From a virus: a DNA stretch of 28,779 bases. Position numbers and translations under genes: made by a program. The stretch covers positions 1-28,779 of IMG/VR virus record IMGVR_UViG_3300047586_000001, one strand, 5' to 3'. The notes beneath the pieces were generated by a model that did no database searches, was not told the origin of the DNA, and saw only the letters and a list, made by a program, of their open reading frames with translations. Numbering within the stretch: the stretch's first letter is position 1; every line of letters begins with the position of its first letter. Below, piece after piece: positions 2 to 19,472 of this stretch.

Positions 2-949
2 AATCCTGGTGGTTACACAGTTAAACCACAGAATTGGGCAGATATAGTTAATGGTTTTGGTCAAGATCAATATAAAGTCAATTTTAATTTACCAGCATTT
101 AATGCAGGTAATCAAAAGAAGGTAGCTTTACCAGTTAGTAACCAATCTCCTAATAATCCGTGGGCAAATAATCCATTTTCAGATCTTAAATATAATGCTC
201 CAAATGCTGATATGAATATACCACAAGCAGACATGGGGTCATTAAATAATTGGCAGAATAATAATGTTAAATTTAGCAATCCTGCAGACAATCCTTTATT
301 AGGTGGTGGTCGTAGAGGTTTACAAAGACCTGGCAATAGTGGTTCAGCAATGGATTGGCTTGGTATGTTACCGGGTATATTTAATTTAGGTGCTGGTTTA
401 ATGGCTCCTAAAGCACAACGTCTTAATCCAAATCAATTTTATAATCAAGATGCCAATAGAGCGTTATCAATGATGCCAACACAGTTTAGGATAGATCCTC
501 AACTAGCAGAAGTTAGAAATGCAATGGCTAATAACTATAGGAATATAAATAATCAAGCTAATTCTCGTGGTGAACGGATGGCTAATTACGGTTCTGCTAC
601 AAATCAATATAATTCTGCTGTTGGTAATCTATATGCTGAAAAGAATAATCAGGAGAATACATATGCTAGGGAAAGAGCTGGTATGTTAAATGAGCAAGGT
701 CAACAACGTGCTAATGTTAATATGGGTGTACAGAATATGAACGATGAAAATAGAGCAGCAGCTCTTAGATATCGTATGGGTTATCTTGGTGCAGGTGTAT
801 CTGATGTACAAAAGAATTATTTAGTTAATAAACAGATGGTTAACCAGCAAGCAGCACAAATGGCTTGGATTAGAGCAATAACTCAAAGACCTTATTGGGG
901 TAATTGGACAGGTTTAGATCCTAATAGTCCAACAGGTATAAAACAATAA
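2..949 (+). CDS. Putative virion cargo/ejection protein, partial at 5' end
   Basis: The reading frame is open from the first complete codon at position 2 through the TAA at 947-949, so the gene starts outside the window. The first in-window ATG (212) is only an internal methionine; the upstream part (NPGGYTVKPQNW...) has the same composition. About 315 residues are visible. The protein is rich in Asn, Gln, Ala and Met and I saw no cysteine. It has one hydrophobic Gly-rich segment (GMLPGIFNLGAGLM, just after position 360), then a long helical, charged Q/N-rich C-terminal half ending PTGIKQ. Such composition next to virion RNA polymerase genes suits an internal virion protein that is packaged and ejected, but I recognise no specific family. 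A tandem TAA TAA ends the gene, and the next ATG follows 4 nt after the first stop, so the two are co-transcribed. Confidence 0.75.
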   Translation, partial: NPGGYTVKPQNWADIVNGFGQDQYKVNFNLPAFNAGNQKKVALPVSNQSPNNPWANNPFSDLKYNAPNADMNIPQADMGSLNNWQNNNVKFSNPADNPLLGGGRRGLQRPGNSGSAMDWLGMLPGIFNLGAGLMAPKAQRLNPNQFYNQDANRALSMMPTQFRIDPQLAEVRNAMANNYRNINNQANSRGERMANYGSATNQYNSAVGNLYAEKNNQENTYARERAGMLNEQGQQRANVNMGVQNMNDENRAAALRYRMGYLGAGVSDVQKNYLVNKQMVNQQAAQMAWIRAITQRPYWGNWTGLDPNSPTGIKQ

Positions 950-2828: not shown

Positions 2829-5800
2829 ATGGCTTTAGAAAATATTTTAGACGGAGATGGCGTTAAGAATGCTCCTCTAATTGGTTTGAAAGGGGTTGAC
2901 CCCCTAACGAACTTAGATCAAGGGGATACTAAAAACATCCCCTTAATTGGTTTAAGGGGTGATCAAGGTTTAATGCAAACTCAAGAAGGTCAGGTACCGT
3001 CGTCTTATAGTAGGATATTAAAAGATAGTTATCACCCAGAATTTTCACCATCAACTATTCAGAGACAATTGGCTACTAATCAGACAGCTGGTGGTCAATT
3101 AGTAAATACTTTGGCTGGTGCTGCTATGGGCGAGATAGGTGGTGGTTTTCTAAAGGATATAGGATATCTTATGGGTGGCCCTGCAATGCTTAGTAGAGAC
3201 GCAGAAGATAGTTTAGGTAAAGATTTTATAAATGCTGGGTCTGCACTTCAAGAAAAATCTAATGAATTATTTCCGGTCTACCGTGATCCTAGCGCTCCTA
3301 AGTTTGATCCATCGAGTTGGTCTTGGTGGTTAGATAATGCTAAAGGAATGGCTTCGATTATTCCTGCTGCTGCATTAGCATATACTGGCGTTGGTGCAGT
3401 TGGTAGTATAGCCGAAGTTCTTGGCATACCCTCCGCTTTAGGTTTGAGTGCTATAGAACAAGCTGGTGTTAGTGCTGTTGGTAAAGGTATTATGCAAAGG
3501 CAAGTATATAACATGATGTTTGCTCATAGTACTTATGAAGATATTTATCAAAAAGCGCTTCAGAGTGGTATGAAGGAACCTGATGCTAATAAGAAAGCAT
3601 CTATAGCCGCTTCAGATAGTTATAAAAAAGATTGGGCTTTATTGCCATTAGATATAGTTCAATATGGATTAGTTACTAAAGCTTTACTTAATCCAGAGCA
3701 ACCGTATAGTTTTTCTTTTGGTAAGTTCATGAAGAAACCAATCGAGGAATTAGCGACTGCTCCATTAAAGAGATTAGGTAGTGAAATTGCTATCGGAGGT
3801 GGTCAATTAGGTTTCCAATGGATGATGTCCGAAGAGGGTAAATATACTGCAGAGAAGGCATTTGATCCTAGTATAAAAAGTGACTTTAGTGAAAGGGTCG
3901 GTAAATATCTTCAAAATGGTGAATTTTGGTCTAGTGCTGTTATGGGCGGCATGGGTGGTGCTGTATTTACTGGTATAGGTAGTTTACTAGATAGAGCATT
4001 TCATGGTGATCCACAAATGAACGAAGCTAAATATTGGGCTACAACTTTCAAAGAAGCTCATGAAAAATCAAGGGTAGCAGAAGAAACAGGAGATACGCAA
4101 TTAGCAAAAGATGCTCAACATGATCATGAGATACAGTTAGGTACTCGTATGGCCCAAAATGGTTTACTAGAACCAGGGATAGATTTTTTTAAGAAGGTAG
4201 CAAAAGGTGAGTTTACATCAGATGAAGGTAAAAAGATAGGTTTGACAGATGAAGATATTCAAAAACTTAAAAATGTTAATCCGGCAGATATAGATGAATC
4301 TGTTAAAAATATACGTGAAGCTGGTGAAAAGTATCAAACTAGACTTAAGGAAACATTAACAGATGGTACAGAATTAAACAAAGCAGTTAATAAATTATAT
4401 GAAGATAGACCTAAAGATTACCAACGTGCTACATTACCAGATTATGCTAGAATGTATGCGTCTCTTGTATCTCAGACTGAAACTAAGATCAATAGGTTAA
4501 ATGAATCTAGGATACAATTAGAGACCGATCTAAAAAACACTGAAGGTAAGATAGTTAATTGGTCTTCGTTATCAGCAAATAAACAAAATCAATGGTTAGA
4601 AGAATCACATAGATCTGCTATTGCAGCTCAACAATTAATTATTGAAAATGCTTATGATGCTGTCAAAGATAGAGAAGATATAGATGATAATTATAAGAAT
4701 GATCTTAAATTTCAACTTAATACTGCCAATCAATTACTTAAGAAACATGAAACCGCTTTAAAACAATATCAAAAGGATTATACAGAAGAAGACAAAGAGA
4801 ACGATAAAGGTATAGATATCACTAGTGATGCAATGCATGAATATCTTGATCAAGATTATAGTCATGCTGCTACACTATTAAAAATAGCAAGTTTACAAGC
4901 TGCATCAGATAGATATCGCAAAGGCCAAATATCTACTCCAGAGCAACGTTTAGAGTATAATACTAATGTTGATGAGCAGACTCCAAAAGATCTCATACCT
5001 GAAGAGAATGATTTAGTAGGTTGGACCGATGAGCAAGGACAACGTCATGCTGGTACAGTTACTGCTATTGATAACAAAGATCCAGATAGTTATACTGTTC
5101 AGGAATTAGGACGTGATTATAAAGATATAGGTGAATCTATAGTTAAGAATAAGGTTGATTTAGAAGTATTAAACAAATTAAGTGATAATGCTGCAAATAA
5201 TTGGGATGTAGATACTTCCGATGAAAATCCAAATGTAGTTGAACAGAATGAAATGCTTAGAGATGGTACTAATCATGCTCTAGCAGATCCTAGTTCATTA
5301 AGTACATCTAATATTAATAAAGCATTTTCTGGTGGTATAGAATATAGGGATCAAAAATTATATAATTGGTCTAATCAACCAAATAATACTTTCACTCCAT
5401 CGGATAGAGCCACTTATACTATAGATTGGGATAATTCATTCTGGGATACTCGTCAGGGTATAAAGACAGCATTACAAAATAAAAAGGGAATAAATGAATT
5501 ATTAGAAGAAGATCTTAAGAGATCATTTAGGTACACATCATTAATAGATAAGATACCAATTAAAGTATCTCTTGGTGTAGGTAAAGATACATTTGATACT
5601 AGATTATATCTCCATGATTCAGATTTTTGGAATGTACGTAAACCAGGAAACGTATTAGCAGACCCAGAAGTATTTGTCAAAGAATGGCGTGAATCATTAC
5701 GTTCAACAAGACGTCAAATATTAATTCAATTACTCAATGATCAAACTGTAGAAACTACCGGTCTTAAAAAAGCAAGTAGCGGTCCATTTAATGTTATCAA

Positions 5801-8800
5801 AACAAATGGTAATATACATCAAAGATTCAATATTAAACCTAATGAATTTAAGACGTATATTGGGGTAGATGGTTTATTAGGTAGTACAAATGCTGTGGCT
5901 GGTCCAAACGATTTAACATCTATTGATGGTTTAAGTCGTGGTTCTGTCTATTTAAAGATGAACAAGACAGCCAATGGTGAATACAGATTTGTCAAACTTA
6001 ATCCTGGTAAATTATCAGATGAACATGCGGATATATTATTTGATGCAATTGTTCAACGTCAACGTAATGGTTCAAAGTTTGTATTAAAAGATTCTCGTAT
6101 CAAGGGAGATCTAACTACCAATGAAATAATTCAATTGTTAGCGTACACGGGTGATAGAAACACTAATCCTGATCATCCAAACAATGCAGGTAAGGATATT
6201 CCAGCAAACAAAGCATTATATATACGTCACAAGAATGGCACAGCAGTATTATACTTTGGTGACGATAGTTTAGATCTATATAATTATTCAACTGGAGATA
6301 AACAGAAATTCAAAGATTGGGCTACTGCTAATAAGAATTATCGCATTCCTATTAGTATAGATAAAATGGGTCTTAGTCTCAACGATGTCTATAAGAAAGA
6401 ATTTAGTATTGGTTCTCTTAAGAATGATCCTAAGAACAATAAAACTTGGGTTGCAACTCTTATGGATACTAATGTTGCTCCAGAAGGAGAGGAACCAAGG
6501 TATGTGCTGTCAACTAATATTGATAGAGTTAAAGATACAACTACAGGAGAATATATTGAATCAATTACACATTCACCATTGATAGACATTAATACTAGAT
6601 CTCTAGAAGTTAAGGAACCAAAGTATACGGCTAAAATAGAAGAGGAAGTTAAACCTAAGAGATATCAAAAACCTCCTGCTGAATATCCTAAGCCAGAATC
6701 AATTACTGATGAAAAGGATATAGTATCTAAATCACATATTGGTACATTAAAACAATTAAATGTTGGTACCGAACTATCATATACTGATGTAGAAGGAACC
6801 CATCCTTTTGGTGTTATAGAAGTTGCTGGTAATGGTGTCAAATCTATTAAGTTAACAAATGGTTATGACAATATAGACGAATTACATAATAAGAAGAATC
6901 TTAGAATAGTTGTTGCTAATCAAAATGATATTAATGATCTATTTAAATATGTGTTAACCGGTGCAAAATCAATTGATTTCAACGAAGTAAAGTTACCAGA
7001 AGTCAAAGAAGAACAACCAATCAAAAAGTTTACTTTAGGCGATATGAAACCTTTGGGTTCAACTGAGTTAGGCAAACAGTTGTACATTCCAAAAGAACCT
7101 ATTGAACCAATATCTTCAAAAGAATTAGATTGGCTTAGAGATAAATTAGGTAAGCAAAATGTTCAAATAACCAATCGTTTAATTGATATAGCAGGTCGCA
7201 CTGGTCAGAAGTATTTTGGTTCATTTCAGTCAGATCTTATTAAAGTGTTTGAAGCAGCCCCAGGAACTGTATTATACCATGAAGCCTTCCATAGGGTTTC
7301 TAAGGGCTATTTAAGCGACTTTGAACGTCGGGCGGTATATGATGAGGCCCGACAGAGATATGGTCTTAAAGGTGCCTCAAATGAAGCCGTAGAGGAATTC
7401 CTGGCTGATAAATTCATGGAGTACAAATCTACTGGCGCTAAACCTGAAACTAGGGGTGTTATTCAATACATTAAAGATCTATATGATTTTATTAAATCTA
7501 TATTTACTGGTGAATCACGTCTTAGGTCTTATGATATAGATAAGTTATTTGATTCCATAGAACGTGGTAAATTTAGGTATAGTAAGATATCAGTTGATAA
7601 TTTAAGGCAATTAAATGGTAAAGCATTTGGTTACGAAATAGGTAATAAAGATATACCTACAATTGAGTCGTTTGATGATCTAAAAGATTTAACTAAAGGT
7701 TTGGCTAGCATTCTCATTACAGAAAATCATGTACAGGATGTTAATGATGCATTAACTATTGGTGCAGGGTTTTTTAAACCATTAATAGATTATATTAGAC
7801 ATGATCCAGATCCAAATAAACCTGATGATAATGGCGGTCTTATTCAGCAATTCAAATCAGTTATTGCATATGATCAACATGAATTGATTCGTGCTGATTT
7901 AGATCCTAAGGAATCAGAGAAGTTACAAGCAGAATTACAGCAGGTAACTAAGTTAAAGGATCTCTATGAATCAATCCTTGATCCTCAATATTTCCCAATA
8001 TTTGTAGATAAGATTAATACTGCTCTTGCAAGTTACAATATTGCAAAACGAGTAGTAGATAAAGAATATACAGATGATGAGTATATCAATGAAAATAATG
8101 ATCGTGATCTGTTTATGGATTATATTACTAAAGCACCATATGAAGTAAATATTAAAGATACTGTTAATGCCGCTATCAAATTTCTAGTTGCTACGTTACC
8201 AGATAGTCCTGAAGTTAATCCTCGTACATTTACCATAAGACATGTTGATTTCAATGATACATGGTCTAAATTATTGAATGATTGTCACAATGCAGACACA
8301 CCAGAAGAGGGATTAGATATCTTAGATGGTAAATCTGATATATATTCATACAAAGTTCTAGCACAAAGACTAAGGGCAGGAGATGATTTGTTAAGGAATC
8401 AATTTAAAGTAGCCATGAATAAGCAAAGGAATTTGTTTATCAATTGGTTATTTACATTAGATAGGGACGGTAAACCTACATTTGATGCATCTGATGCTAG
8501 TTATAGATCCGCTATTGCTACAGAGATTGCATCGTGGAATGATATCTTATTTAGTTCAAATCTAATAGACAGAGTAGGTAAACCCAAACTCGATATGTCT
8601 AAGATTAATCCTATATTAAAAGATTATAATACATTCAAGAATAACTTCTCTAAGGATTATGAAACAAATGACAGAACTTTAACTGACGAACAAGTAGATA
8701 AGCATATCAACAATTTCTTACCATTAGTAAATAAGATAGGTATAGATGTAGACAGATCTACTGTTGATGAGGCCATAAACAAATTTTCTAGGGAATCAAA

Positions 8801-11800
8801 GTTAACTAAATCTGAAGCATTAAATAAATTCTTTCTTGACGATTTTCAACGTATATTAAAAAAGATTGAAGATCAAGGAAATGGAGTCGGTAAAACTGTG
8901 TCATTACGTACTTTACTTAGTGATGAGAAGTTAATCAGGGATCTAGCTCAAACCAAATATGAAGTTAAACCAGAATTGTTAAGTGATACAGTACTTGGTC
9001 CAGGTAATAATCAATATTTTACATATTCCCAGAATACATATTTATCTGATGTATTTAGGGGATTCATGAAAGATCCTAGGATTGTATTAAATAAATTAAC
9101 TAAAGTATATAATAAACATTCTGATTTCCTTGGTCAATTAACAGATGATAATGTTAGACAGGGAGTTGGTATATTAACCAATAGTGCTTTAATACAACAG
9201 GGTATAGGGGATAGTGGTAGAGATTATCTTAGTCTTAATAGGATGGAAGATTATCTCATGAAGATGTATGCGTTTGAACGTAACATTATTCCATTGCCGA
9301 CATTGGGTGATAAGACATCGTATTATTTCATTAAAGGTTTAAAACCAATTGATTTTGATCTTTCGTGGGGAGATGATGGCAAACCTATAATACCAAAAAA
9401 TGTTATAGATCTATTTTACAATTATGCTTTAGATGAAAAGGAACGCCGTGAGAAAGCAGATGTTGTAATAAAAGATTATGAAGCAGAGAAGGATGAAGCC
9501 ATTAAAAGGGATAAACTTAAAAAGTTATATGCTAACTATCATTATGTTCAACGTGGGGATAATCCACCTGCTACTAAACAAGCCAATGCTTTAAGGTGGT
9601 TACTATTTCCAGAATTTGGCGAGAAAAAGGATTTCAACTTTGAACAAGACGCTAGACCAATTATTGAAAAAGTATTATCAGATAGGTTAAATGATGAGCT
9701 AAAGATTGCTAATCAAAAGGGTTTAATATCTGGTAGACTAATGGAAGATGGTCGATTTAGACCTGACGCCAATGCTAAGTTAGATGCCGGTATATTAGCT
9801 AGAAACATAGAACAACATGGTACAGAGCAGCATGCCATAGAAAATATGATGGCTAGATTTGTTATTCGTAATATACAATCTGCCATTGAGTATAGTAAAT
9901 TAATAACTGGTGATCCAGCATTTAAGAAATGGAATCCTGAAAAAGGATCAATAGATGATGACTATACTAAACGCATGGGGGCAGCTATTTCTACAGGCGA
10001 TGTCACAAATAATTCATCAAAAGATTATGGCGTAGATGCTACAAATTATTCTGTAGCTACAATGTATACCCAGAGAGTTAAACTCGATAGATTACTCAAA
10101 GAGAATTATGAGAATATATTTAGTGCTCAATTAAGAGAGTTAGCGAAAGAATATTCATTAACTGATCTTACTCGTTCAAAGCAATTAGATGCTTTAAAGT
10201 CTAAGGGTATCAATCTTGTAGATATGTTAAAGGGATATAACGATATAGATTCTACAGATGGTCAAGTTTATATACGTCCCGATATGTATAGATCTTTCTC
10301 TATAAGCGTTGGGGAATGGTCACCTAAGAAGGAAGAAGCATTTAAACTATTGCAATCAGATAGACCATTAACTCAAGGAGAATATGAGAATTCAATGAAT
10401 GTTGTTATGCAACCATTGAAAGTTCTGTCATATGGTTTAATGGCAGATGGTGAATTAGAAGTACCTATAATGAATAAGATGTCCCTTGCTACTATATTTA
10501 GACAAATGGGGCAGTTTGGTCATACTAAAGGAACTCGTATAGAACTGATGAATCTTCTTGATAGGATGGAATCTAAAGGTGATTATAAAGATTTTAAACC
10601 AATAGACATGATCAAAATGGATACTGCTGTCAAGAGTGGTGGTAAGATTGGTTTTAATTTTTATAAGGATGCAGACTTATCTCAAACTGGTGATTTTAGT
10701 GATATTCCTGTATTTGAAGAACCATACGCTTTGAATAGGAAACAGTTGAATACTGATCCTCATGATCAGGAAGATATCAAAGTAACCAGTCAAATGATTA
10801 AGATAAGTATGTCCAATTTAAGGTTGGGTGATGCTATCTATGATAACCCAAGAAGTGGTGAGAAACTTAAAGGTTCTGATATAGCAAATAATATATTTAA
10901 ATCTACCAGTGCAATTAGCGATCATGGTAGGGAACGTATTGAGAAGAAACTCGATATACAAAATGGTGTGTTAAATAAAGAGAAGTTAACCGCTATGATT
11001 AGAGATAATGCGCTTAAGGCTGGCTCGCCAGATCTTATTGTAGATGCCCTTAGAATGGATGATAATGGTAAAGATCCATATCTAGAAATAGATGCATTAC
11101 CTAATAGAAAACAAATTCAAGCTGGTCTTATATCAAGTTTTGGTAAACAAACAGTAGATCTCAAATTTCCTGGTATGCAGGCTGTACAAATGTCAAATAT
11201 GGGTATTCGTGTCAATAAAGACGATGAACTCAAATATACTACGGCTAGCGAGATTAGTGTTAATAGTATGGAATGTTATGTTTCATTAAATCTATTTAAA
11301 CACATAATTCCAAATTATGATAATTTAAGTTATGCTGAGAAACGGAAATTTGTCTTAGTTAACAAAGATACTATAATGGGTTATCGTGTTCCAGCTCAGG
11401 GTCAGAGTTCTGTATGGCAACTTAAAGTCAAAGACGTATATCCAGAGACAATTGGAGATGTTGTAACTTTACCAGCAGCATTTACTACATTGACTGGTTC
11501 AGACTTTGATATAGATAAGGCTTATCTTATTAGACATAATTATACTATTATAGACGGCAAACCACATAAAATAGGATTCTATGATACTCCACAAGAAGTA
11601 TGGGATAATGAATATCAACCTAAATATGAAGTGTTACAACGAGCATTAACTAGATTAGATCAAATACATGATAATGATTTTGCACCAACTGGTGGAAAGA
11701 TTTCAACAGAAAATTTATTAAATAGTATTGATAAGATACTAACTCCAGATATTGTTGATGAGAGTAAAAAAGAGAATACTTTAAAAAGTTTATTATACAA

Positions 11801-14800
11801 CATATTCAATGATAAATTTGTTGATGAGGAATATGATAAACTTAAATCTCTCATTGGTAAGATGGAAGATAGAAAGAAAGAGTTCTTTGATAAATATGGC
11901 GATGAAACAGATCCATACAAATTTAATAGTGAGGAAGCTGTACAGAATTTATTAATGGATTCATATAAATCAATTTTTACTAATCTTGCTCATGTTGTTG
12001 ATACTACTACTCCTTTAGGTGCATATGATAGTATGATCAATAATTTAGCAGATGAGATACATAAATATGATCCAACCAAATATAGTTCTAAAGACTTAAC
12101 TCTCTATTTGCCGAGTAGACAATCTGATATCAAATTTGAACAAACTGGTGGTAAAGGTGGTATGGCTCCTGCTGCATTAAATAATGTACATCATGTGTTA
12201 TCGCAGATAGCTGGTCTTAAAATGAAAGATTATAGACCAGTTGAAGGTGTTCTTAATACAGATGAAAATGGTAGACTTGATCTATCACAAATCAATGGTA
12301 AGGACAATTTGCCTATCTCTAGTTGGTTATCATCATTGATTAACATACATATTGATGCATCGAAAGATCCACGATTTATGTACCTTAACATTAATCCTAC
12401 TACATGGGATGTTGCTTATTTCCTGGTACGTAGTGGTTTTGGTCTAGATACATTTAGATTGACTTCTCAACCTATAATTAAAGAATACTCTGACTTGATG
12501 TTAGATTCCCAGAATGGTAATCGTATATCAAGATTTACTGATAGAAGAACTGTTCTGCAACATTTGAGGGCAGAATGGGCAAATAAATTAGAGAAGGGTG
12601 TTACTAGAGAAAGTACTGATAACGCTAAGTTGTTAAGTACAGAAGAGATGACAAAGAATATCGCTAGTCAAGGTAAAGATATATCAAAGCAATTACAATA
12701 CTTAGATTTATTTGATGAGTTCCAGAAACAAGGTAAAATATTGAATGGTCTTGTACAGGCTAGTCAGTTGGACATCAAACGTAAAGTGGGTAATAGTATT
12801 ATATCTTTACTAGATACTAGAGATAAGATTGATCAATTGTTCAAAGATGATAACTTTATTGGTCTAGATAAAATGTTTGAGGAAGGATCGTTTCTTGGTG
12901 CATACTATAAGAATTTTCTAGATTTCACCTTGAAATCATTATCTGATGTTAGTATATATTCTACACCAGTATTTACCAAATTGTTTAGAGAAGTACAAAG
13001 ATTAACTCACACTAATTTTGGTGGGGATAAGAGATTAGCAGACAATATAGCAGATGAGTTAATGAATACTGTCTATGCTGGATTCTGGAATGATAAGGAT
13101 TATGTTGGTTTAGATTTTAAACGAGTTAGTGTTATATTTAAACGTGTAGTAGAATCATTGCAATCAATTAAAACTTCTCCTGAATATAAAGAGTTATCAA
13201 AGAATCCATTGATCAAGATATTAAATAAGACTCCATTAGAGAATATACCAGATGAATTACCATTTGATTCATTTCTTACTGTGCCTAGTAAGAACTTAAA
13301 AGATAAGTTTAGTTCTGACGGATTAATGTACGGCTGGCGTGATTTATTTCAGTCAAAGGATGAAAAGGTACGTAATTTGGCTAGATACTTATTATATTAT
13401 TCATACATAACATCTGGCTTTAGAAATAGAATATTCAGTTTCCATAACTATATTCCACCGTCAATAATGAAAGAGTTTGATGGTGTAGATCCTGTTAGTG
13501 GTGAATCGAAACCTTTTAGTTTCAATGAATATATTAAGAAGACCAGAGATTTAATGTCTGATCCAGATAATGTACCAATGTTTAGTTATCTGGTGGATGA
13601 AACTATAATTAATAATTGGTCTAATAGTAAGATACAACCAACAGCAATTGCTAGAAATATTATTAGTCCAATTAATATGATTGGTGATAAGATTACTGAT
13701 AAACCAACTGCGTTTGTAACTAATCTATGGGGTACATGGTTAGGTAAAAATGCTAGTGGTCAACCAATATGGACTAAATATATAACTGAATTAGTTCCTG
13801 GCGAAGGTAAACAAGAAGCACAATATATAGGTTATGTTAAAACTGTTGGTAGAACTGGTAATGATATTAATTTGCCTGTATATAAGATTATACCTAAGAA
13901 ATCATATGAACGAGGTGGTGTAGTTATTAAAGAAGCATTATTTGATAAATCTATTTTACCATCAAATAATGTTGACTATATTAAAGATGGTGATGAATTT
14001 AATACTTTGACATCGAAAAAGGTGATCGAAGATCAGCCAATATATAAGGAATTTACACCAGTTACAGATTATCAGACAGTTAATCCTAGAGATATACAAT
14101 CAGATGATGTTCCAGATGTATCTGTTGAACCTAAAGTAGATGTTATTAAAGAACAGTTAGATCAACAAATATCAGAGAATAAGGAGCCAGAAGAACCATT
14201 GGCTGTTAAAAAAGAAGCAGGTGATAAAAGATCATATTCTCCAAGGGAAGTCTTAGATAGATTTAAGACTGCTAAAACTATTAAAGATGCAGAAGATATT
14301 ATATTAGGTTATAAATATGTTATTAATCCAAAACGTTATAATGATAAGTTATATATTGCTAAAGAAACAGTTAAATCAAATATTAGCAATTATGAGTTAA
14401 CAAAAGATATGGTTGATAAAGTCAATATTGAAATACCAAATTTATTGTCTATAAATCCATCTTTAGCAGAGAATGGTCGTCCTATATATGATATACGTAT
14501 AAATGAGCATGTATGGAATGAATACGTTAATCGTGACCCACAACTTGCATTACCTATGAAATCTATAGATGAGCAGGTTGCAGAAGCTAAACTTACTGAT
14601 CGAGATGATATATTAAACGTATTTGCTCAAACTAAAGGTATTAAAAATGCCTATCAATGGTTAGATAGAACTGTAGAATTAATACCAGATTTATCTACAG
14701 AACACAGAGATTTTATTAATACTATTAAAGCATATGGTGAATCAAACCCAGATATTGGTATACTTCAAATTAATAAATGGGAAATTGATAAATATTTTGC

Positions 14801-17800
14801 TCCACCAAAAGATGATCCTACATATTATCATGATGCATTAGGTTCATATAAGAATGGTACAATTTATTTAATTAAGGGACCATTGGCAAAAGAGACTAAG
14901 AGTACACTAGTTGGTACATTTTTACATGAAATGACACATGCTCGGACTTTAGATGTATATAGGAGATGGGAGAAAGGTGAAACTTTGACAGATGTTGAAT
15001 CAAAATTTATGACAGATGTTGATAAGATATACAAGGATGCTAGGAAAGTAACTAAATTTGAAGATGATCCATCATATAAAGATCTTAAGGAATTCTTAGC
15101 AGATGGTATAACTGATCAACAGATAATTGATGAGTTAAAAACCAAAATGGGTCTATGGGAAAGGATTAAATCTGCAATATGTAAATTATTTGGTTGGGAA
15201 TATACCCCAAAATCATATCATTATAAATTACTTAGTTCTATCATGGACTATGCATATAAGGACAAACGTCCAAATACTGGTGTAGAAGGGATGGAGGCTG
15301 CTAAGATAGCAAATAATGTAAAAGTAAATAAAGATAATCCAAAACACGTTGAGATCAAAGATGCACTGTTGAAGTCTGAAGATGCATACGATAAGATGAC
15401 ACCATTTGAACCAACTTACATAATGATGGACAGACTTTATATGGGTGGTAAACCATACGATTTATTTGATGAAAAGAGTAGGGGTAATATAGATAGGTAT
15501 TACGGTACAGATCTTGCAACTAGAATGCAACTTGAGAAATCATTTCAAGATGTACAGGATAAGATACAAACGAAATATAAGTTATCTGGTGAAGCAGCCA
15601 ATGATTTATCTAAGATATTTAAACAGATTCAAGATAAAGTTGGTCCAGGAGCATCTATATTTTCAAATGTTACATTAGCAGATTTTACCGAAAAATTGGC
15701 TAGTAAGGCAGACCTTATTGTTATTAGTAAAGATAATAAAGTTCATATATTTAAGTTTAAATCTAGGGAAATAGGATTTGAAAGCTATGATAGAGACTTT
15801 GCTACTAAACCTAGTAGATTTAAGTTTTCAGAATATAAACGAGATCAGGTGGATCTTACGATCCTTAGTAATATGTTTAAAGCAATTACTAATATAGATG
15901 TAGAGAGAGATGGTTTACATATTATACCTTTGAAACCTATTGTTAATGATCAAACTAAAACTATTGATAGATATGTAATTGACAAATCATTTGATAACAG
16001 GGATGTTATAGATATGCCAACTACCAATAACGCTGCTTTATTGTATTTGAACAAAACAAAGTCTATGAATCCTATGGACAATCAAGATGTCTTGAGTCAA
16101 GATGAAATGGATGCTGTCAAGTCTGCTAATGAAAAATGGCAGAATAAGATTGAAAAAGTAGAGGTTCAAACACCAGAACAGGAAGTATTAAAAAGAGTTG
16201 TTAATTCTCTTGAGAAACAGATGGCTATAACATTCAAACGTGGTACAGCCAAAACGTTTAGGGAACAGATGGATTATATTAATAAGATTAAAAAGGAAGA
16301 TGATACACAAAAAGCATTATCATATGTTATAGATGTAGCTAATCATATTACTAAACGTGCATATAATGATTTAAATAAACTTAAACTAGAAGGGCAACCA
16401 ACTTTGCAGCAATTATATAGATTCAAAGATGCAGTATCAGCTTTTGATATCTTAGATCAATATGATGCATTTTTAACAGAGAAATATGGTCTTACAGCTC
16501 CTAAATCTATGCAACAGAGTGATCCAGATTCCTTTGGCAAGTTAATGGCATTAAGGGAAAAGTTATCAGACGCCATTAAACATAAGAACTCAGTCAAACT
16601 TGATTATGAAAGAATTGGTTTAGATGTATTAGCAGATAAAATATTACCATACTTTACTAAAATAGTATCGGAGTTTAAAAATAAATATATATCCGAATAT
16701 AAGGTCGCTAGATATGATAAGGAACATGGTATAGTTAAACAACGTACAGGACAGACCGATGCTCAATATAGAGATTATGTAAATATGGTTGAAAACTTCA
16801 ATCCAAATTTAACAGAACAGGAATATGTTAATAGTAAAATGGATGAAAATGGCGATACCATACAAGAGAAATCAAAACTTATTATACGTAAGGAATTAAA
16901 AAAGGCTTCCCAAGATATATCAACATTGGCTAGATGGATAGACAATATCTTAGATAGTCCAGACCCAGTTGTTGGGGCATTAGTTAAATCATTTGTTGCA
17001 AAGGATGATGAGGCTAGAATAGAGATAGAAGATCATAGATTAAGGGCTCTTCCAATAACCGAGGAGTTTATGGAAGCTACTAAACAATATGGTAATAATT
17101 ATCAAAAGAGGTATGATTATTTGGCAGAAAGAGATCTTAAAACTGGTAAGTTAAGTGGTCATGTAATATCTAAATTTCATTCATCTCTAATAGCAGAGAT
17201 GCGTAATATACGTGCTATAGCAGATGCTACAATAGAAGATGAATCGCAGAGAGATGCTTTTGTTAATGCATGGAAAGAAACTAATATGCCTTTGAATAGA
17301 CTTGTTCGTGATGCAGCATATCAAAAATATCTTGATCAATTAGTAGCCGATAAGGAAATTAGTTCTGCTGAATATAATATATTAAAGATAAGTAAAGATA
17401 GAATATCAGATTTAAAGAATCAGGAAGGTAGTCCTATAACGGATAATACAGAAGATTTAATACTTCAATGGTATCAAGATAATAGTTTAAACTATAGAGA
17501 ACCTGCTGCGAAATGGATTAATCCTCAATGGGCTAAATTACAAAAGATATTATCAAATCCTAATGATCCTAGGACTAAGATGTATAATTTAATCTTAGAA
17601 TGGCAGGATTTAGCTGATAGTATGGTTCCATCATCCGTTAAATTGGGGACTAGATTACCAGGTGTTATAAAAGATAAAATAGAACGTTTGGGTAGTGGCC
17701 AAAATTTGGCAGAGATGTCAAAGGGAGCATTTAGCAAAGCATTAAATTTTAAGGTTGATGATACTCATAGAGTTCAAACTGATCTGGTTGATAATGAAAA

Positions 17801-19472
17801 TAATGCTAGGTATTTTGTACCAACCCACTATACTGGTTTTGTTAGTAAACTGGTGAAAGACGAAATTGGTAACGAATATAAAGAGTTTGATCCAGATGAA
17901 CAATCATGGAATTTAGCTAATATATATTTTCATTACCTAGGTTCAGCCATAGAATTTGAATGGAAAAATGATATATTACCAGAAATGGAAATGGCAAGAT
18001 TTCTATTTAATAATAGAGATGTTGTTAAACGAGATTCTAAGGGTAATATCCTATATCAGGCAAATAGGTGGTTTGGTCCAACCGAAGAGGAAGGTATACC
18101 GCAAGTTACTAAAGGTGGTAATATTGCCAAACAATTTGATGATTGGTTATTATATGCTTTGTATGGTCAAGGTACAAAAGATTTAGGTACTATACCTGGC
18201 ACTAACATAGATGCAGGTAAATTTGTTAATGTGTTACAGAGATTTACAGGTTTGAATTTATTAGGTCTAAACTATGTGGCTGGTACAGCGTCTACTGTTT
18301 TAACAGAAACTATTATGGGCATTGATGCATTGGCTAATGCTGAAATTGGTAAACATGAATGGAAGGTAGCACAAGGTACATTCTTTAAGAATTTAGGGGG
18401 TATATTGGCTGATATAGGTTCAAAACAACCTTCTAATTTAGTTAGTTTACTACTTAAAGAGTTTAATGTTATACATGCTGGTAAGTTTGCTAATTTAACA
18501 GATAGTAAATTTAGGATTTTGGCTAATACAGATGCTTTATATTTTGTTGGTACATTTGGTTGGTATACAATGCAGGTCAAAAGTATGTTAGGTATGTTAG
18601 AGAAGCGTAAGGCATTTGATTCAGAAGGTAAAGATATAGGTTCTATATTAAGTCATTATAAAGTTGTAGATGGTAAATTGGCATTAGACAAAGAAGTAGA
18701 TGAATCAAGAAGTCATTGGACTAATATAGATCGAAGAGTATATGAACATAATATACGTGGTGTTATTAGTTCAATCCACGGTGATCAGTCAGATTTAGGT
18801 AGGGTTGCAGCACAAGGTAATGCTCTGTTAGGTATGGCAATGCAGTTCCGTAGATTTATTGTACCTACATTTAAACGTAGATGGGGTGGCGCTAGGTACG
18901 ATGAACGTACAGCAGATAATCAAATGGGTATGTATACCAATACTGCTAAATTTGCTCGTCAACTATTAAAGAATATGTCAGAAGCAAAATCATTTATGTT
19001 ATCAAGGGAATGGGCTATTGCTGATCATTTAACTAAGGTTAATGTAATACGTACATTTGGTGATGTGATAACAGTTTTATCTGCTGTCATATTAGCAAAT
19101 GCTGCAATATCAATGGCTAAGAATGCTCAACAAGAGAAAGACAGGGATGCTGAAATGAAGATGTGGAATTTTATGGCTTATCAAGCATTGAGATTGAAAG
19201 CCGAGTTCTTATTTTATACATCGCCAACTCAAGCGATGCAAATATTAAGGTCGCCGGCAGCTTCAATGTCAATGTTTGAAAATACTATTAAGTTAGCAAC
19301 ACAGATATTAGGACCAGGTTGGCAGGAATATCAACAAGGGCCGTTTAAGAATCAACTTAAGATTAAGAAGACTTTAATTGACATGACAGTTGGTGTTAAA
19401 CAATACTATAGGTTAAGAGAAATGGGTCAACAGGTTAGTCTTATGAAATCTAATGTAGTCAAGGTTCAGTAG
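2829..19472 (+). CDS. Giant crAss-type virion RNA polymerase fused to two zincin peptidase domains, 5547 aa
   Basis: One uninterrupted frame of 5547 codons (about 630 kDa at 113 Da per residue) that fills 58% of the window. Approximate order: tandem KNxPLIGLxG repeat (13-44); hydrophobic Gly/Ala segments (163-222, 270-287, 367-391); helical region (400-650); SH3-like stretch (725-770); zincin 1 HEAFH (1484-1488) with EEFLAD (1522-1527); RNA polymerase core with DTAVKSG (2598-2604), YRVPAQGQSS just before DPBB2, and DFDID (2892-2896); charged linker (3720-3800); zincin 2 HEMTH (4033-4037) with EFLAD (E4088); PD-(D/E)XK-like segment (4295-4311); helical region (4400-5050); hydrophobic C-terminal module (5140-5547). 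Known family: the DxDxD motif and double-psi barrels match the single-chain crAss polymerase (phi14:2 gp66), which is injected with the DNA and transcribes early genes. The fusion into one chain is seen directly; packaging, ejection and self-cleavage are inferred. It ends TAG, with an in-frame TAA seven codons later. Confidence 0.93.
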   Translation: MALENILDGDGVKNAPLIGLKGVDPLTNLDQGDTKNIPLIGLRGDQGLMQTQEGQVPSSYSRILKDSYHPEFSPSTIQRQLATNQTAGGQLVNTLAGAAMGEIGGGFLKDIGYLMGGPAMLSRDAEDSLGKDFINAGSALQEKSNELFPVYRDPSAPKFDPSSWSWWLDNAKGMASIIPAAALAYTGVGAVGSIAEVLGIPSALGLSAIEQAGVSAVGKGIMQRQVYNMMFAHSTYEDIYQKALQSGMKEPDANKKASIAASDSYKKDWALLPLDIVQYGLVTKALLNPEQPYSFSFGKFMKKPIEELATAPLKRLGSEIAIGGGQLGFQWMMSEEGKYTAEKAFDPSIKSDFSERVGKYLQNGEFWSSAVMGGMGGAVFTGIGSLLDRAFHGDPQMNEAKYWATTFKEAHEKSRVAEETGDTQLAKDAQHDHEIQLGTRMAQNGLLEPGIDFFKKVAKGEFTSDEGKKIGLTDEDIQKLKNVNPADIDESVKNIREAGEKYQTRLKETLTDGTELNKAVNKLYEDRPKDYQRATLPDYARMYASLVSQTETKINRLNESRIQLETDLKNTEGKIVNWSSLSANKQNQWLEESHRSAIAAQQLIIENAYDAVKDREDIDDNYKNDLKFQLNTANQLLKKHETALKQYQKDYTEEDKENDKGIDITSDAMHEYLDQDYSHAATLLKIASLQAASDRYRKGQISTPEQRLEYNTNVDEQTPKDLIPEENDLVGWTDEQGQRHAGTVTAIDNKDPDSYTVQELGRDYKDIGESIVKNKVDLEVLNKLSDNAANNWDVDTSDENPNVVEQNEMLRDGTNHALADPSSLSTSNINKAFSGGIEYRDQKLYNWSNQPNNTFTPSDRATYTIDWDNSFWDTRQGIKTALQNKKGINELLEEDLKRSFRYTSLIDKIPIKVSLGVGKDTFDTRLYLHDSDFWNVRKPGNVLADPEVFVKEWRESLRSTRRQILIQLLNDQTVETTGLKKASSGPFNVIKTNGNIHQRFNIKPNEFKTYIGVDGLLGSTNAVAGPNDLTSIDGLSRGSVYLKMNKTANGEYRFVKLNPGKLSDEHADILFDAIVQRQRNGSKFVLKDSRIKGDLTTNEIIQLLAYTGDRNTNPDHPNNAGKDIPANKALYIRHKNGTAVLYFGDDSLDLYNYSTGDKQKFKDWATANKNYRIPISIDKMGLSLNDVYKKEFSIGSLKNDPKNNKTWVATLMDTNVAPEGEEPRYVLSTNIDRVKDTTTGEYIESITHSPLIDINTRSLEVKEPKYTAKIEEEVKPKRYQKPPAEYPKPESITDEKDIVSKSHIGTLKQLNVGTELSYTDVEGTHPFGVIEVAGNGVKSIKLTNGYDNIDELHNKKNLRIVVANQNDINDLFKYVLTGAKSIDFNEVKLPEVKEEQPIKKFTLGDMKPLGSTELGKQLYIPKEPIEPISSKELDWLRDKLGKQNVQITNRLIDIAGRTGQKYFGSFQSDLIKVFEAAPGTVLYHEAFHRVSKGYLSDFERRAVYDEARQRYGLKGASNEAVEEFLADKFMEYKSTGAKPETRGVIQYIKDLYDFIKSIFTGESRLRSYDIDKLFDSIERGKFRYSKISVDNLRQLNGKAFGYEIGNKDIPTIESFDDLKDLTKGLASILITENHVQDVNDALTIGAGFFKPLIDYIRHDPDPNKPDDNGGLIQQFKSVIAYDQHELIRADLDPKESEKLQAELQQVTKLKDLYESILDPQYFPIFVDKINTALASYNIAKRVVDKEYTDDEYINENNDRDLFMDYITKAPYEVNIKDTVNAAIKFLVATLPDSPEVNPRTFTIRHVDFNDTWSKLLNDCHNADTPEEGLDILDGKSDIYSYKVLAQRLRAGDDLLRNQFKVAMNKQRNLFINWLFTLDRDGKPTFDASDASYRSAIATEIASWNDILFSSNLIDRVGKPKLDMSKINPILKDYNTFKNNFSKDYETNDRTLTDEQVDKHINNFLPLVNKIGIDVDRSTVDEAINKFSRESKLTKSEALNKFFLDDFQRILKKIEDQGNGVGKTVSLRTLLSDEKLIRDLAQTKYEVKPELLSDTVLGPGNNQYFTYSQNTYLSDVFRGFMKDPRIVLNKLTKVYNKHSDFLGQLTDDNVRQGVGILTNSALIQQGIGDSGRDYLSLNRMEDYLMKMYAFERNIIPLPTLGDKTSYYFIKGLKPIDFDLSWGDDGKPIIPKNVIDLFYNYALDEKERREKADVVIKDYEAEKDEAIKRDKLKKLYANYHYVQRGDNPPATKQANALRWLLFPEFGEKKDFNFEQDARPIIEKVLSDRLNDELKIANQKGLISGRLMEDGRFRPDANAKLDAGILARNIEQHGTEQHAIENMMARFVIRNIQSAIEYSKLITGDPAFKKWNPEKGSIDDDYTKRMGAAISTGDVTNNSSKDYGVDATNYSVATMYTQRVKLDRLLKENYENIFSAQLRELAKEYSLTDLTRSKQLDALKSKGINLVDMLKGYNDIDSTDGQVYIRPDMYRSFSISVGEWSPKKEEAFKLLQSDRPLTQGEYENSMNVVMQPLKVLSYGLMADGELEVPIMNKMSLATIFRQMGQFGHTKGTRIELMNLLDRMESKGDYKDFKPIDMIKMDTAVKSGGKIGFNFYKDADLSQTGDFSDIPVFEEPYALNRKQLNTDPHDQEDIKVTSQMIKISMSNLRLGDAIYDNPRSGEKLKGSDIANNIFKSTSAISDHGRERIEKKLDIQNGVLNKEKLTAMIRDNALKAGSPDLIVDALRMDDNGKDPYLEIDALPNRKQIQAGLISSFGKQTVDLKFPGMQAVQMSNMGIRVNKDDELKYTTASEISVNSMECYVSLNLFKHIIPNYDNLSYAEKRKFVLVNKDTIMGYRVPAQGQSSVWQLKVKDVYPETIGDVVTLPAAFTTLTGSDFDIDKAYLIRHNYTIIDGKPHKIGFYDTPQEVWDNEYQPKYEVLQRALTRLDQIHDNDFAPTGGKISTENLLNSIDKILTPDIVDESKKENTLKSLLYNIFNDKFVDEEYDKLKSLIGKMEDRKKEFFDKYGDETDPYKFNSEEAVQNLLMDSYKSIFTNLAHVVDTTTPLGAYDSMINNLADEIHKYDPTKYSSKDLTLYLPSRQSDIKFEQTGGKGGMAPAALNNVHHVLSQIAGLKMKDYRPVEGVLNTDENGRLDLSQINGKDNLPISSWLSSLINIHIDASKDPRFMYLNINPTTWDVAYFLVRSGFGLDTFRLTSQPIIKEYSDLMLDSQNGNRISRFTDRRTVLQHLRAEWANKLEKGVTRESTDNAKLLSTEEMTKNIASQGKDISKQLQYLDLFDEFQKQGKILNGLVQASQLDIKRKVGNSIISLLDTRDKIDQLFKDDNFIGLDKMFEEGSFLGAYYKNFLDFTLKSLSDVSIYSTPVFTKLFREVQRLTHTNFGGDKRLADNIADELMNTVYAGFWNDKDYVGLDFKRVSVIFKRVVESLQSIKTSPEYKELSKNPLIKILNKTPLENIPDELPFDSFLTVPSKNLKDKFSSDGLMYGWRDLFQSKDEKVRNLARYLLYYSYITSGFRNRIFSFHNYIPPSIMKEFDGVDPVSGESKPFSFNEYIKKTRDLMSDPDNVPMFSYLVDETIINNWSNSKIQPTAIARNIISPINMIGDKITDKPTAFVTNLWGTWLGKNASGQPIWTKYITELVPGEGKQEAQYIGYVKTVGRTGNDINLPVYKIIPKKSYERGGVVIKEALFDKSILPSNNVDYIKDGDEFNTLTSKKVIEDQPIYKEFTPVTDYQTVNPRDIQSDDVPDVSVEPKVDVIKEQLDQQISENKEPEEPLAVKKEAGDKRSYSPREVLDRFKTAKTIKDAEDIILGYKYVINPKRYNDKLYIAKETVKSNISNYELTKDMVDKVNIEIPNLLSINPSLAENGRPIYDIRINEHVWNEYVNRDPQLALPMKSIDEQVAEAKLTDRDDILNVFAQTKGIKNAYQWLDRTVELIPDLSTEHRDFINTIKAYGESNPDIGILQINKWEIDKYFAPPKDDPTYYHDALGSYKNGTIYLIKGPLAKETKSTLVGTFLHEMTHARTLDVYRRWEKGETLTDVESKFMTDVDKIYKDARKVTKFEDDPSYKDLKEFLADGITDQQIIDELKTKMGLWERIKSAICKLFGWEYTPKSYHYKLLSSIMDYAYKDKRPNTGVEGMEAAKIANNVKVNKDNPKHVEIKDALLKSEDAYDKMTPFEPTYIMMDRLYMGGKPYDLFDEKSRGNIDRYYGTDLATRMQLEKSFQDVQDKIQTKYKLSGEAANDLSKIFKQIQDKVGPGASIFSNVTLADFTEKLASKADLIVISKDNKVHIFKFKSREIGFESYDRDFATKPSRFKFSEYKRDQVDLTILSNMFKAITNIDVERDGLHIIPLKPIVNDQTKTIDRYVIDKSFDNRDVIDMPTTNNAALLYLNKTKSMNPMDNQDVLSQDEMDAVKSANEKWQNKIEKVEVQTPEQEVLKRVVNSLEKQMAITFKRGTAKTFREQMDYINKIKKEDDTQKALSYVIDVANHITKRAYNDLNKLKLEGQPTLQQLYRFKDAVSAFDILDQYDAFLTEKYGLTAPKSMQQSDPDSFGKLMALREKLSDAIKHKNSVKLDYERIGLDVLADKILPYFTKIVSEFKNKYISEYKVARYDKEHGIVKQRTGQTDAQYRDYVNMVENFNPNLTEQEYVNSKMDENGDTIQEKSKLIIRKELKKASQDISTLARWIDNILDSPDPVVGALVKSFVAKDDEARIEIEDHRLRALPITEEFMEATKQYGNNYQKRYDYLAERDLKTGKLSGHVISKFHSSLIAEMRNIRAIADATIEDESQRDAFVNAWKETNMPLNRLVRDAAYQKYLDQLVADKEISSAEYNILKISKDRISDLKNQEGSPITDNTEDLILQWYQDNSLNYREPAAKWINPQWAKLQKILSNPNDPRTKMYNLILEWQDLADSMVPSSVKLGTRLPGVIKDKIERLGSGQNLAEMSKGAFSKALNFKVDDTHRVQTDLVDNENNARYFVPTHYTGFVSKLVKDEIGNEYKEFDPDEQSWNLANIYFHYLGSAIEFEWKNDILPEMEMARFLFNNRDVVKRDSKGNILYQANRWFGPTEEEGIPQVTKGGNIAKQFDDWLLYALYGQGTKDLGTIPGTNIDAGKFVNVLQRFTGLNLLGLNYVAGTASTVLTETIMGIDALANAEIGKHEWKVAQGTFFKNLGGILADIGSKQPSNLVSLLLKEFNVIHAGKFANLTDSKFRILANTDALYFVGTFGWYTMQVKSMLGMLEKRKAFDSEGKDIGSILSHYKVVDGKLALDKEVDESRSHWTNIDRRVYEHNIRGVISSIHGDQSDLGRVAAQGNALLGMAMQFRRFIVPTFKRRWGGARYDERTADNQMGMYTNTAKFARQLLKNMSEAKSFMLSREWAIADHLTKVNVIRTFGDVITVLSAVILANAAISMAKNAQQEKDRDAEMKMWNFMAYQALRLKAEFLFYTSPTQAMQILRSPAASMSMFENTIKLATQILGPGWQEYQQGPFKNQLKIKKTLIDMTVGVKQYYRLREMGQQVSLMKSNVVKVQ
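2865..2960 (+). repeat. Two-copy 22-residue repeat with overlapping GC hairpins at the start of the giant gene
   Basis: At protein level KN(A/I)PLIGL(K/R)G occurs at residues 13-22 and 35-44, a 66-nt period; DQG follows at 31 and again at 46. At DNA level the segment packs five runs of four or more G or C into about 70 bp of an otherwise AT-rich gene: G 2892-2895, C 2900-2904, G 2922-2925, C 2939-2942, G 2956-2959. AAGGGGAT (2920-2927) pairs perfectly with ATCCCCTT (2937-2944). The same C run also pairs as CCCCTTAA (2939-2946) with TTAAGGGG (2952-2959). The two hairpins cannot form together. Confidence 0.8.
3306..4005 (+). other. Giant protein: N-terminal hydrophobic Gly/Ala-rich region
   Basis: Residues about 163-222 (WSWWLDNAKGMASIIPAAAL onward, then GVGAVGSIAEVLGIPSALGL) and 367-391 (SSAVMGGMGGAVFTGIGSLL) are Gly/Ala-rich and hydrophobic enough for membrane contact, with a shorter stretch near 270-287 (LLPLDIVQYGLVTKALL). 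There is no N-terminal signal peptide, so this is not an exported host-type protein. In phage ejection proteins, segments of this type insert in or cross the cell envelope during DNA delivery; that role here is inferred. A second hydrophobic module lies at the C-terminus. Confidence 0.5.
7245..7610 (+). other. Giant protein: zincin metallopeptidase domain 1 (HEAFH)
   Basis: VLYHEAFHRVSKGYLSDFER carries HExxH at residues 1484-1488, with a likely third zinc ligand in EEFLADKF (E1522/E1523), 34-35 residues after the second His. An amphipathic segment (IKDLYDFIKSIFTGESRLRS) and LFDSIERGKFRY follow, an arrangement I associate with metallopeptidase modules in very large phage polyproteins. Zinc binding and peptidase activity follow from the motif and are untested. 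The DNA from about 7246 to 7410 is clearly more GC-rich than its flanks and holds a 7-bp inverted repeat, GTCGGGC (7327-7333) with GCCCGAC (7347-7353). Confidence 0.7.
10450..11560 (+). other. Giant protein: double-psi beta-barrel RNA polymerase catalytic region
   Basis: The metal-binding loop is SDFDIDKAYL (Asp2892, Asp2894, Asp2896), corresponding to NADFDGDQM of cellular beta' subunits and the DxDxD of single-chain crAss and YonO-type polymerases. Upstream, GYRVPAQGQSS aligns with the beta' NRAPTLHR segment, and the spacing to the Asp loop resembles that of beta'. Earlier conserved blocks are EVPIMNKMSLATIF (about 2540), DTAVKSG (2598-2604) and LKFPGMQAVQMS (about 2778), likely from the first barrel, which supplies basic active-site residues. 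The full polymerase probably spans roughly residues 1600-3600, similar in size to phi14:2 gp66. Confidence 0.85.
14850..15140 (+). other. Giant protein: zincin metallopeptidase domain 2 (HEMTH)
   Basis: GTFLHEMTHARTLDVYRRWE holds HExxH at residues 4033-4037, preceded by KNGTIYLI, the beta strand typical of zincin edges, and followed by LKEFLADG, where E4088 is the likely third zinc ligand. The helix after the first His motif is longer than in domain 1, so the copies are diverged, but both share the ...EFLAD signature. Catalytic activity and substrate are unknown. Confidence 0.7.
15640..15990 (+). other. Giant protein: PD-(D/E)XK-like domain, probably degenerate
   Basis: ADLIVISKDNKVHIFKFKSR (Asp4295 to Lys4311 and beyond) has the beta-hairpin pattern of PD-(D/E)XK nucleases, normally DLIV...hhhDxK. 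The first Asp and the final Lys are present, but the acidic residue of the D/E-x-K pair is Lys4309 (KFK instead of DFK). The following RDQVDLTILSNMF helix resembles the Q-motif helix of RecB-like members, then comes GLHIIPL. A fold without catalysis is the most likely reading; a chance resemblance is possible. Confidence 0.4.
18240..19472 (+). other. Giant protein: hydrophobic C-terminal module
   Basis: Residues about 5140-5171 (FTGLNLLGLNYVAGTASTVL onward) and 5413-5434 (VITVLSAVILANAAISMAKN) are hydrophobic. Between them is a conserved-looking basic block, AAQGNALLGMAMQFRRFIVP followed by TFKRRWGG. The pattern (hydrophobic helix, basic FRR...KRRWG, amphipathic end) recalls C-termini of other very large phage virion polyproteins; membrane or envelope contact during ejection is inferred. 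Confidence 0.45.

Follow-up and report, generated by a model that had tools for sequence, protein, structure and literature searches.

A single open reading frame for the virion RNA polymerase cargo of a crassvirus-like phage, and terminal cysteines at the points where relatives break the same chain

How crassviruses, N4 and T7 push megadaltons of protein down the narrow channel of the tail is an open question, and it is raised again by one ORF in a single IMG/VR metagenomic viral contig, which has 28,779 bases, is probably a fragment and is called the window here. The ORF (2829-19472, + strand) has 5547 codons with zero interruption, and the calculated mass of its product is 631.0 kDa. About 471 stops are expected by chance at the base composition of the ORF, and the other forward frames contain 432 and 926, so the unbroken frame described by an earlier sequence-only reading is real in this respect. 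That reading had also proposed that the chain joins a virion RNA polymerase (RNAP) with zincins and delivery modules; this is what we found, and phage phi14:2 makes these parts as separate proteins. The features of the window are listed below.

2829..19472, + strand: giant ORF, 5547 aa, with the module order A, zincin 1, RNAP, zincin 2, degenerate PD-(D/E)XK, C-terminal module
3006..4337, + strand: N-terminal module A, aa 60-503; HMM matches at the same position in many relatives; weak hydrophobic stretch at aa 177-209 (hydropathy)
7089..7670, + strand: zincin-like domain 1, aa 1421-1614; HEAFH at 7278-7292 (aa 1484); homologous to the C-terminal region of crAss001 gp47
9015..13784, + strand: virion RNA polymerase region, aa 2063-3652, which aligns with residues 540-2060 of phi14:2 gp66; the metal-binding loop, DFDID, is at 11502-11516 (aa 2892)
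14070..14858, + strand: RNAP/C-part fusion region, aa 3748-4010; locus L008 has stop/start here; coding in frame throughout
14733..15245, + strand: zincin-like domain 2, aa 3969-4139; HEMTH at 14925-14939 (aa 4033); homologous to the zincin of phi14:2 gp65 and cr1_1 gp77
15525..15881, + strand: PD-(D/E)XK-like domain, aa 4233-4351; predicted inactive (VHIFKFKSRE, second catalytic Asp replaced by Lys)
17556..19415, + strand: conserved C-terminal module, aa 4910-5529, equivalent to crAss001 gp49 and the C-terminal part of phi14:2 gp65; hydrophobic segment at 19038-19118
954..2822, + strand: upstream ORF, 622 aa, no Cys; its N-terminal third resembles cr1_1 gp75; at the position of crAss001 cargo protein C2/gp46
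2..949, + strand: partial upstream ORF, open at the contig end, no Cys; weak similarity to cr4_1 gp24; at the position of cargo protein C1/gp45

Downstream, the opposite strand encodes a resolvase, a primase, a Sak4-like protein, a DnaB-like helicase and a DNA polymerase in an order near that of cr4_1 and cr1_1, and the RNAP, cargo and replication genes of the contig are consistent with crass gene order. No TerL, portal or MCP signature gene was found within this 28.8-kb contig, which is probably a fragment. Rfam and tRNA scans of the stretch were empty, and Pfam and PHROGs scans of the 5547-aa chain gave no informative match.

The polymerase was identified by homology. Residues 2677-3545 of the chain (~870 residues) match 6VR4, the solved vRNAP of phi14:2 (gp66), with E=1.1e-20, and blastp of aa 2063-3652 against gp66 gave E=6e-45. 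The RNAP core was matched by 105 phage records, nearly all of them crass-type. The DxDxD pattern alone is not above chance in the chain (3.6 expected); the DFDID loop noticed earlier is borne out by its place, in TGSDFDIDK inside the region homologous to 6VR4 and in invariant columns of the relatives' alignment. PDB sequence searches with the chain gave no match to the N4 vRNAP, and homology to T7-like single-subunit polymerases was not encountered. N4 gp50 resembles the chain in being an ejected RNAP of giant size, made as one polypeptide and bearing a zincin-like HExxH domain, and it is Cys-free over the 3342 residues covered, but its polymerase is of the unrelated T7 type.

Two HExxH motifs were found in the chain against 0.06 expected by chance, and both of the active sites proposed earlier, HEAFH and HEMTH, are conserved in relatives. 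The HExxH and a downstream Glu ligand are conserved in 93 and 54 aligned rows for the first and second domain; the active-site residues are kept in the chain and are 92-100% conserved among relatives, with the HExxH and EF motif of zincin 2 at 98-100%. A comparison by hhalign links the two zincin families (probability 95.5). The zincin 2 profile matches the PDB ejection proteins 8vb2 (9e-7) and 9sfn (2e-6), and SprT-like Pfam matches were obtained for 7 of 35 members, with matches to lethal-factor-type families too. AlphaFold2 models of both domains show strands, then the HExxH helix and a Glu-bearing helix (zincin 1 at pLDDT 77, with a zincin-like order of elements). Fold searches with both models gave zero significant PDB matches, and the BFVD matches of zincin 1 were crass relatives and polyvalent proteins. 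Structure prediction by fragment, suggested by the earlier reading, has given the zincin-like order of elements and no significant fold match, and the models are consistent with a zincin fold for both domains without proving it.

Two other claims of the sequence-only reading stand in part. The PD-(D/E)XK-like segment has an intact domain of the family as its homologue and keeps the first Asp and the Lys, but the intact catalytic D...(D/E)xK is lost, as the second catalytic Asp, 96% conserved in the family, is Lys in the chain; judged from this residue, the domain is probably not an active nuclease. As for the hydrophobic modules said to lie at both ends, the C-terminal segment (aa ~5404-5430) is a family trait, found in 77% of 146 relatives versus 3% for RNAP-core windows, while the N-terminal stretch (aa ~177-209) is weak and found in 23% of relatives.

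Parts of the chain match three crAss001 proteins, namely the zincin of gp47 (aa 1431-1562), gp50 (aa 2466-3622) and gp49 (aa 4912-5517). These are found in crAss001 virions, with masses of 262.5, 276.9 and 154.5 kDa, respectively (PMC10172136), so the chain is a fusion of three virion cargo proteins. Packaging of the 5547-aa chain itself is assumed by analogy with its homologues; packaging and ejection are known for those of crAss001 and phi14:2 (PMC10172136 and record annotation). In crAss001, gp47 with its C-terminal zincin similar to zincin 1 is encoded on one strand, and gp50 (the RNAP) and gp49 (the C-terminal module) on the other. It differs from the chain in having three genes on two strands with Cys-capped inner ends, and in carrying the PD-(D/E)XK domain in gp47. 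In phi14:2 the order on one strand is gp67 (1797 aa), gp66 (2180) and gp65 (1421), and gp65 matches aa 4590-5516 of the chain; the polymerase is indeed a separate protein with its own gene, as the earlier reading had stated. The RNAP core, the DFDID loop and the module order are the same, with a zincin in gp65, but zincin 1 was undetected in gp67, and three genes with Cys-capped inner ends stand against one gene with no junction Cys. The first two cargo parts are fused (~4500 aa) and the third is separate in cr4_1, cr1_1 and cr55_1. The giant RNAP genes of cr4_1, cr1_1 and cr10_1 (PMC10136315) share with the chain A, zincin and RNAP in one ~4500-aa gene, and differ in that the C part is a second gene (1803-2007 aa), with a Cys-capped junction in cr4_1 and cr1_1. 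Comparison of ORF boundaries, also proposed earlier, thus showed the same cargo made from one to four genes.

Crass RNAP genes have been reported to reach ~6000 aa (PMC10136315), and large multidomain crass transcription proteins with PD-(D/E)XK domains are published (PMC7886860), so the size of the chain alone is not new. Gp96 of P23-45 (5002 aa) also has a two-barrel RNAP inside a giant virion protein, but this is fused to the tape measure of a long-tailed phage, and no zincin-cargo architecture was found reported in the available text of that paper (PMC10770324). Polyvalent proteins of phages and conjugative elements are alike in their many unrelated domains, zincin-like MPTase hub and co-delivery, with ART in crass relatives; they differ in that the available text of the source does not contain the word crAss, and no Cys-capping rule was found in it (PMC5512222). 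The candidates in the chain for such co-delivered domains are the RNAP and the two zincins, and ART-PolyVal is present in relatives only.

A single-sequence search of IMG/VR with the RNAP core found no relatives, and therefore alignments were used for searching. Three profile scans of IMG/VR gave 236 loci, the named phages and the source stretch were added, and dereplication at 90% identity around the DFDID loop left 179 loci. The first ATG was taken as the start codon, and the upstream fused or split status was inferred from the distance to DFDID. RNAP and C module are split in 139 loci and fused in 15. On a FastTree tree of 174 RNAP regions (HMM-column alignment, deep nodes weakly supported), the fused state is found in seven separate groups, which suggests at least seven independent RNAP/C-module fusions; changes between upstream protein and RNAP would number at least nine. 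The sister locus of the chain, L008 (support 1.0), is split: its RNAP gene terminates with ...WKNCL and the following gene starts with MAKCVN. Between the homologous parts there are ~680 residues in L008 versus ~260 in the chain, and because the stretch in L008 is longer, the chain likely arose through deletion of the inner ends.

The RNAP C-terminus of L008 (L008:13133-14032, +) looks SLOG/DprA-type by eye (GIGSRQTPPE...GADKSF), with no Pfam match, and accessory domains seem to have been inserted preferentially at the RNAP-C junction. A zincin-2-type domain lies N-terminal to the RNAP in L070, L071, L072, L087 and L101, which means that zincins change position in the chain.

A lone metagenomic contig of 28,779 bases with a split sister locus, in a family where fusions are in the minority (15 of 154 scored loci), might be thought to owe its fusion to faulty assembly or sequencing, or to a neutral accident. 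We find this hardly credible, since the fusion region (263 aa) is in frame and codon-biased, homology is in frame on both sides of the junction, and the same architecture occurs in other, independent fusions. Coding periodicity is also unbroken through the region, with frame 0 top in each 50-codon window. The earlier reading had named homologues in separate genes together with an assembly error as a possible outcome; the alignment confirms the first, and the codon-biased in-frame junction speaks against the second.

The first sighting of a rule at the breaks was that separate RNAP proteins terminate with Cys and separate C-terminal proteins start with one. The first 79 dereplicated loci were the discovery set, and 100 loci fetched later were the held-out test. 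At held-out splits between RNAP and C module, Cys was present in the last 12 residues upstream in 79/79 and in the first 12 residues downstream in 78/79 (both in 78/79), and in the sole miss, L221, a second in-frame ATG gives MVC. At held-out splits between the upstream protein and the RNAP, Cys was present at the RNAP N-terminus in 48/48 and at the upstream C-terminus in 41/43. The outer C-termini of the same set had Cys in 0/83. The last 6 aa of RNAP proteins contained Cys in 96% (0.5% expected) and the first 8 aa of C proteins in 97% (0.6% expected), and no other residue was similarly enriched at the termini. Upstream C-terminal Cys and RNAP N-terminal Cys also occur together: both in 57 cases, neither in 17, the N-terminal one only in 4 and the C-terminal one only in 0 (p=1e-13).

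Fused chains have no Cys at the RNAP-C junction (0/15), and in L110, L145 and L234, which are partly fused, the one and only Cys is N-terminal. The modal number of Cys per protein matches the count of inner ends, as it is 0 in fully fused chains, 1 in those with one cut end (A-RNAP fusions, C proteins) and 2 in separate RNAPs. Because Cys is present at breaks and absent at fused junctions, the rule follows chain connectivity. Interior Cys makes up 0.076% of residues versus 1.0% in other ORFs of the same loci. The rule is valid in three families and at no fewer than four breakpoint positions, and it is obeyed by phi14:2, crAss001, tikkala, cr1_1, cr4_1 and three Intestiviridae, two of which apparently have N-termini annotated some codons too long. 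Gp67, gp66 and gp65 of phi14:2 have four Cys in 5398 aa, one for each of the four inner ends and none elsewhere, and in crAss001 the only Cys of gp47, whose gene lies on the opposite strand, is at -3. Breaks in module A (L084, L101, L132, L134, L145) are Cys-capped too. A short N-terminal module with a consensus around CPN...W..L, common to many C proteins and some RNAPs, carries the Cys. Cys avoidance is not absolute, however: three Cys lie inside the 5547-aa chain itself (aa 1819, 2816, 4118), and there are as many as 23 in the interior of gut members, some of which read TAG as Gln.

Several loci are of interest in their own right. In L240 (9713-14755, +) two genes encode the RNAP, one its N-terminal part and the other the part with DFDID, and both inner ends are Cys-capped. 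L161 (13938-16037, +) has an extra 705-aa protein between RNAP and C protein, which starts with MATCPN, ends with ..KCS and, Cys-capped in this way at both ends, adds a further link; a similar protein (~700-880 aa, MATCPN start) is found in L163 (13992-16640), and neither has a Pfam match. The annotated starts of crAss002 gp33 (L247:6243-18980) and of the Carjivirus C0531BW4 RNAP (L248:1-11633, -) are apparently ~20-32 codons too far upstream, and an internal MSC fits the rule. The Carjivirus protein at the C1 position (L248:20137-24051, -, 1304 aa) has its sole Cys at -2, unlike crAss001 gp45. In other phages, gp50 (over the 3342 aa covered), gp51 and gp52 of N4 (L088) are all without Cys, and in T7 (L246) gp15 and gp16 have none, while the sole Cys of gp14 is at position 2. 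Proteins ejected across the periplasm may avoid Cys in general.

Some simpler causes were considered and rejected. L021 and L040, which looked like exceptions, are apparently recoded genomes translated with the wrong code. Codon or nucleotide context does not explain the Cys, as some of the genes are at least hundreds of bases apart and crAss001 gp47 is on the other strand; it means that the rule concerns protein ends and not DNA. Intein remnants are contradicted by breaks at several different places and by Cys away from the exact terminus, native chemical ligation by Cys at position 3-6 rather than 1, and a tether to C1/C2 by the cr1_1 and cr4_1 copies of these proteins, which lack Cys.

Paired terminal Cys wherever the chain breaks suggest that selection holds the pieces together. 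They are most simply explained as a staple linking each protein to the next, most likely a disulfide, as far as the sequences can tell. Tail and portal-vertex proteins of crAss001 do have disulfides in the virion, and in the published ejection model the cargo exits through the tail partly unfolded (PMC10172136). With one Cys per end, the pairing partner is ambiguous from sequence, and R-R or U-C pairs (R, RNAP; U, upstream protein) are possible. Virions assemble in a reducing cytoplasm, so the bonds would form late. We consider it probable that the ORF is the whole vRNAP-associated cargo as one chain, and that what is conserved is the continuity, kept through peptide bonds in this phage and through Cys staples in split relatives; we infer that the 5547-aa chain is the peptide-bonded form of a string that is stapled in other crassviruses. 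More broadly, we lean towards the view that, however the genes are arranged, crassviruses always eject their cargo as a single covalent string, with breaks healed by disulfides, threaded as one and parted by host reduction.

The proposed course of events is as follows. The ORF would encode all vRNAP-associated cargo of a gut-type, Crassvirales-like phage except two smaller channel proteins. Where the string is cut, the Cys at each upstream C-terminus and downstream N-terminus would form the staple, a disulfide made in the virion. The string would be stored near the portal, thread the tail partly unfolded and in fixed order after the gp45/gp46-like channel proteins, and refold in the host, where the RNAP would begin early transcription and, in split versions, reduction in the cytoplasm would free the pieces. 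A nearly Cys-free interior would avoid wrong bonds during unfolded passage of the oxidising periplasm. The zincins would work after packaging, in late autoprocessing or on a host target. A covalent string would also set the order and number of the cargo proteins.

The terminal Cys might instead serve another purpose, such as binding a metal between two termini, forming homodimers or anchoring the cargo to portal or capsid proteins, and the facts that the partner is unidentifiable by sequence alone and that interior Cys is more frequent in some gut members leave some room for this. We judge it unlikely, however: each end has one Cys without the co-conserved His or second Cys of a metal site, outer C-terminal ends never bear Cys, a Cys for anchoring or dimer contact would persist at the junction of fused chains, where it is absent, and the channel proteins C1 and C2 of cr1_1 and cr4_1, without any Cys, are not the partner.

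The proposed covalent string also bears on the role of the zincins. The earlier model made the giant chain a precursor that its own zincins may cleave, once assembled or ejected, into a polymerase and the parts for delivery. Its two zincin active sites are intact and conserved, and according to the available text of PMC5512222, zincin-like MPTases were proposed to autoprocess polyvalent proteins, and P1 DdrB, which has a zincin-like domain at its C-terminus, undergoes processing ahead of packaging. The same text has the N4 vRNAP, also zincin-bearing, packaged uncut. Moreover, zincins are also conserved in relatives that encode the parts separately (crAss001 gp47, phi14:2 gp65, cr1_1 gp77), so their purpose is not the cutting of a fusion, and the Cys-capped breaks imply selection for joining. 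Reducing gels of crAss001 virions gave bands of 150, 270 and >300 kDa in the available text of PMC6235969. These are compatible with whole gp49 (154.5 kDa), gp47 (262.5) and gp50 (276.9), a band assignment that is inferred, and they argue against cutting before packaging. Self-cleavage after delivery into the host is possible, nothing here favours self-cleavage, and we regard the precursor model as improbable.

Alternatively, the zincins, with ART and the other variable domains of relatives, could be effectors injected against host proteins, and the fusion mere co-delivery. ART-PolyVal was identified near the N-terminus of C-module proteins, in cr1_1 gp77 (E=6e-10) and cr4_1 gp27 (5e-9), variable domains lie near the RNAP-C junction of relatives, and polyvalent proteins are a precedent as far as the available text describes them (PMC5512222). 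These ART-PolyVal loci are L003:8825-14848 (-) in cr1_1 and L002:18001-23412 (+) in cr4_1, and the domain is absent from the 5547-aa chain. Zincin 1 is however widely conserved and fixed in position, unlike a typical fast-changing effector, and no zincin substrate is known. We keep this as a tentative alternative, with somewhat less than an even chance, and it is compatible with the covalent-string explanation.

In the crass-phage literature on cysteine and disulfide, searched without Drobysheva 2020 and Yutin 2018, no report of the terminal-Cys pattern was found. What is new is the terminal-Cys rule at breaks, and what was known before is the giant fused crass polymerase genes. The rule explains how, in the cargo module, fused and split genes can stand in for each other, it is a sequence signature for locating further links of the string, and it leads to a cheap direct test of whether the cargo moves as one string. 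The question raised earlier, how a chain of 630 kDa fits through the tail, is then reversed, and the long chain may be the normal state and not the exception.
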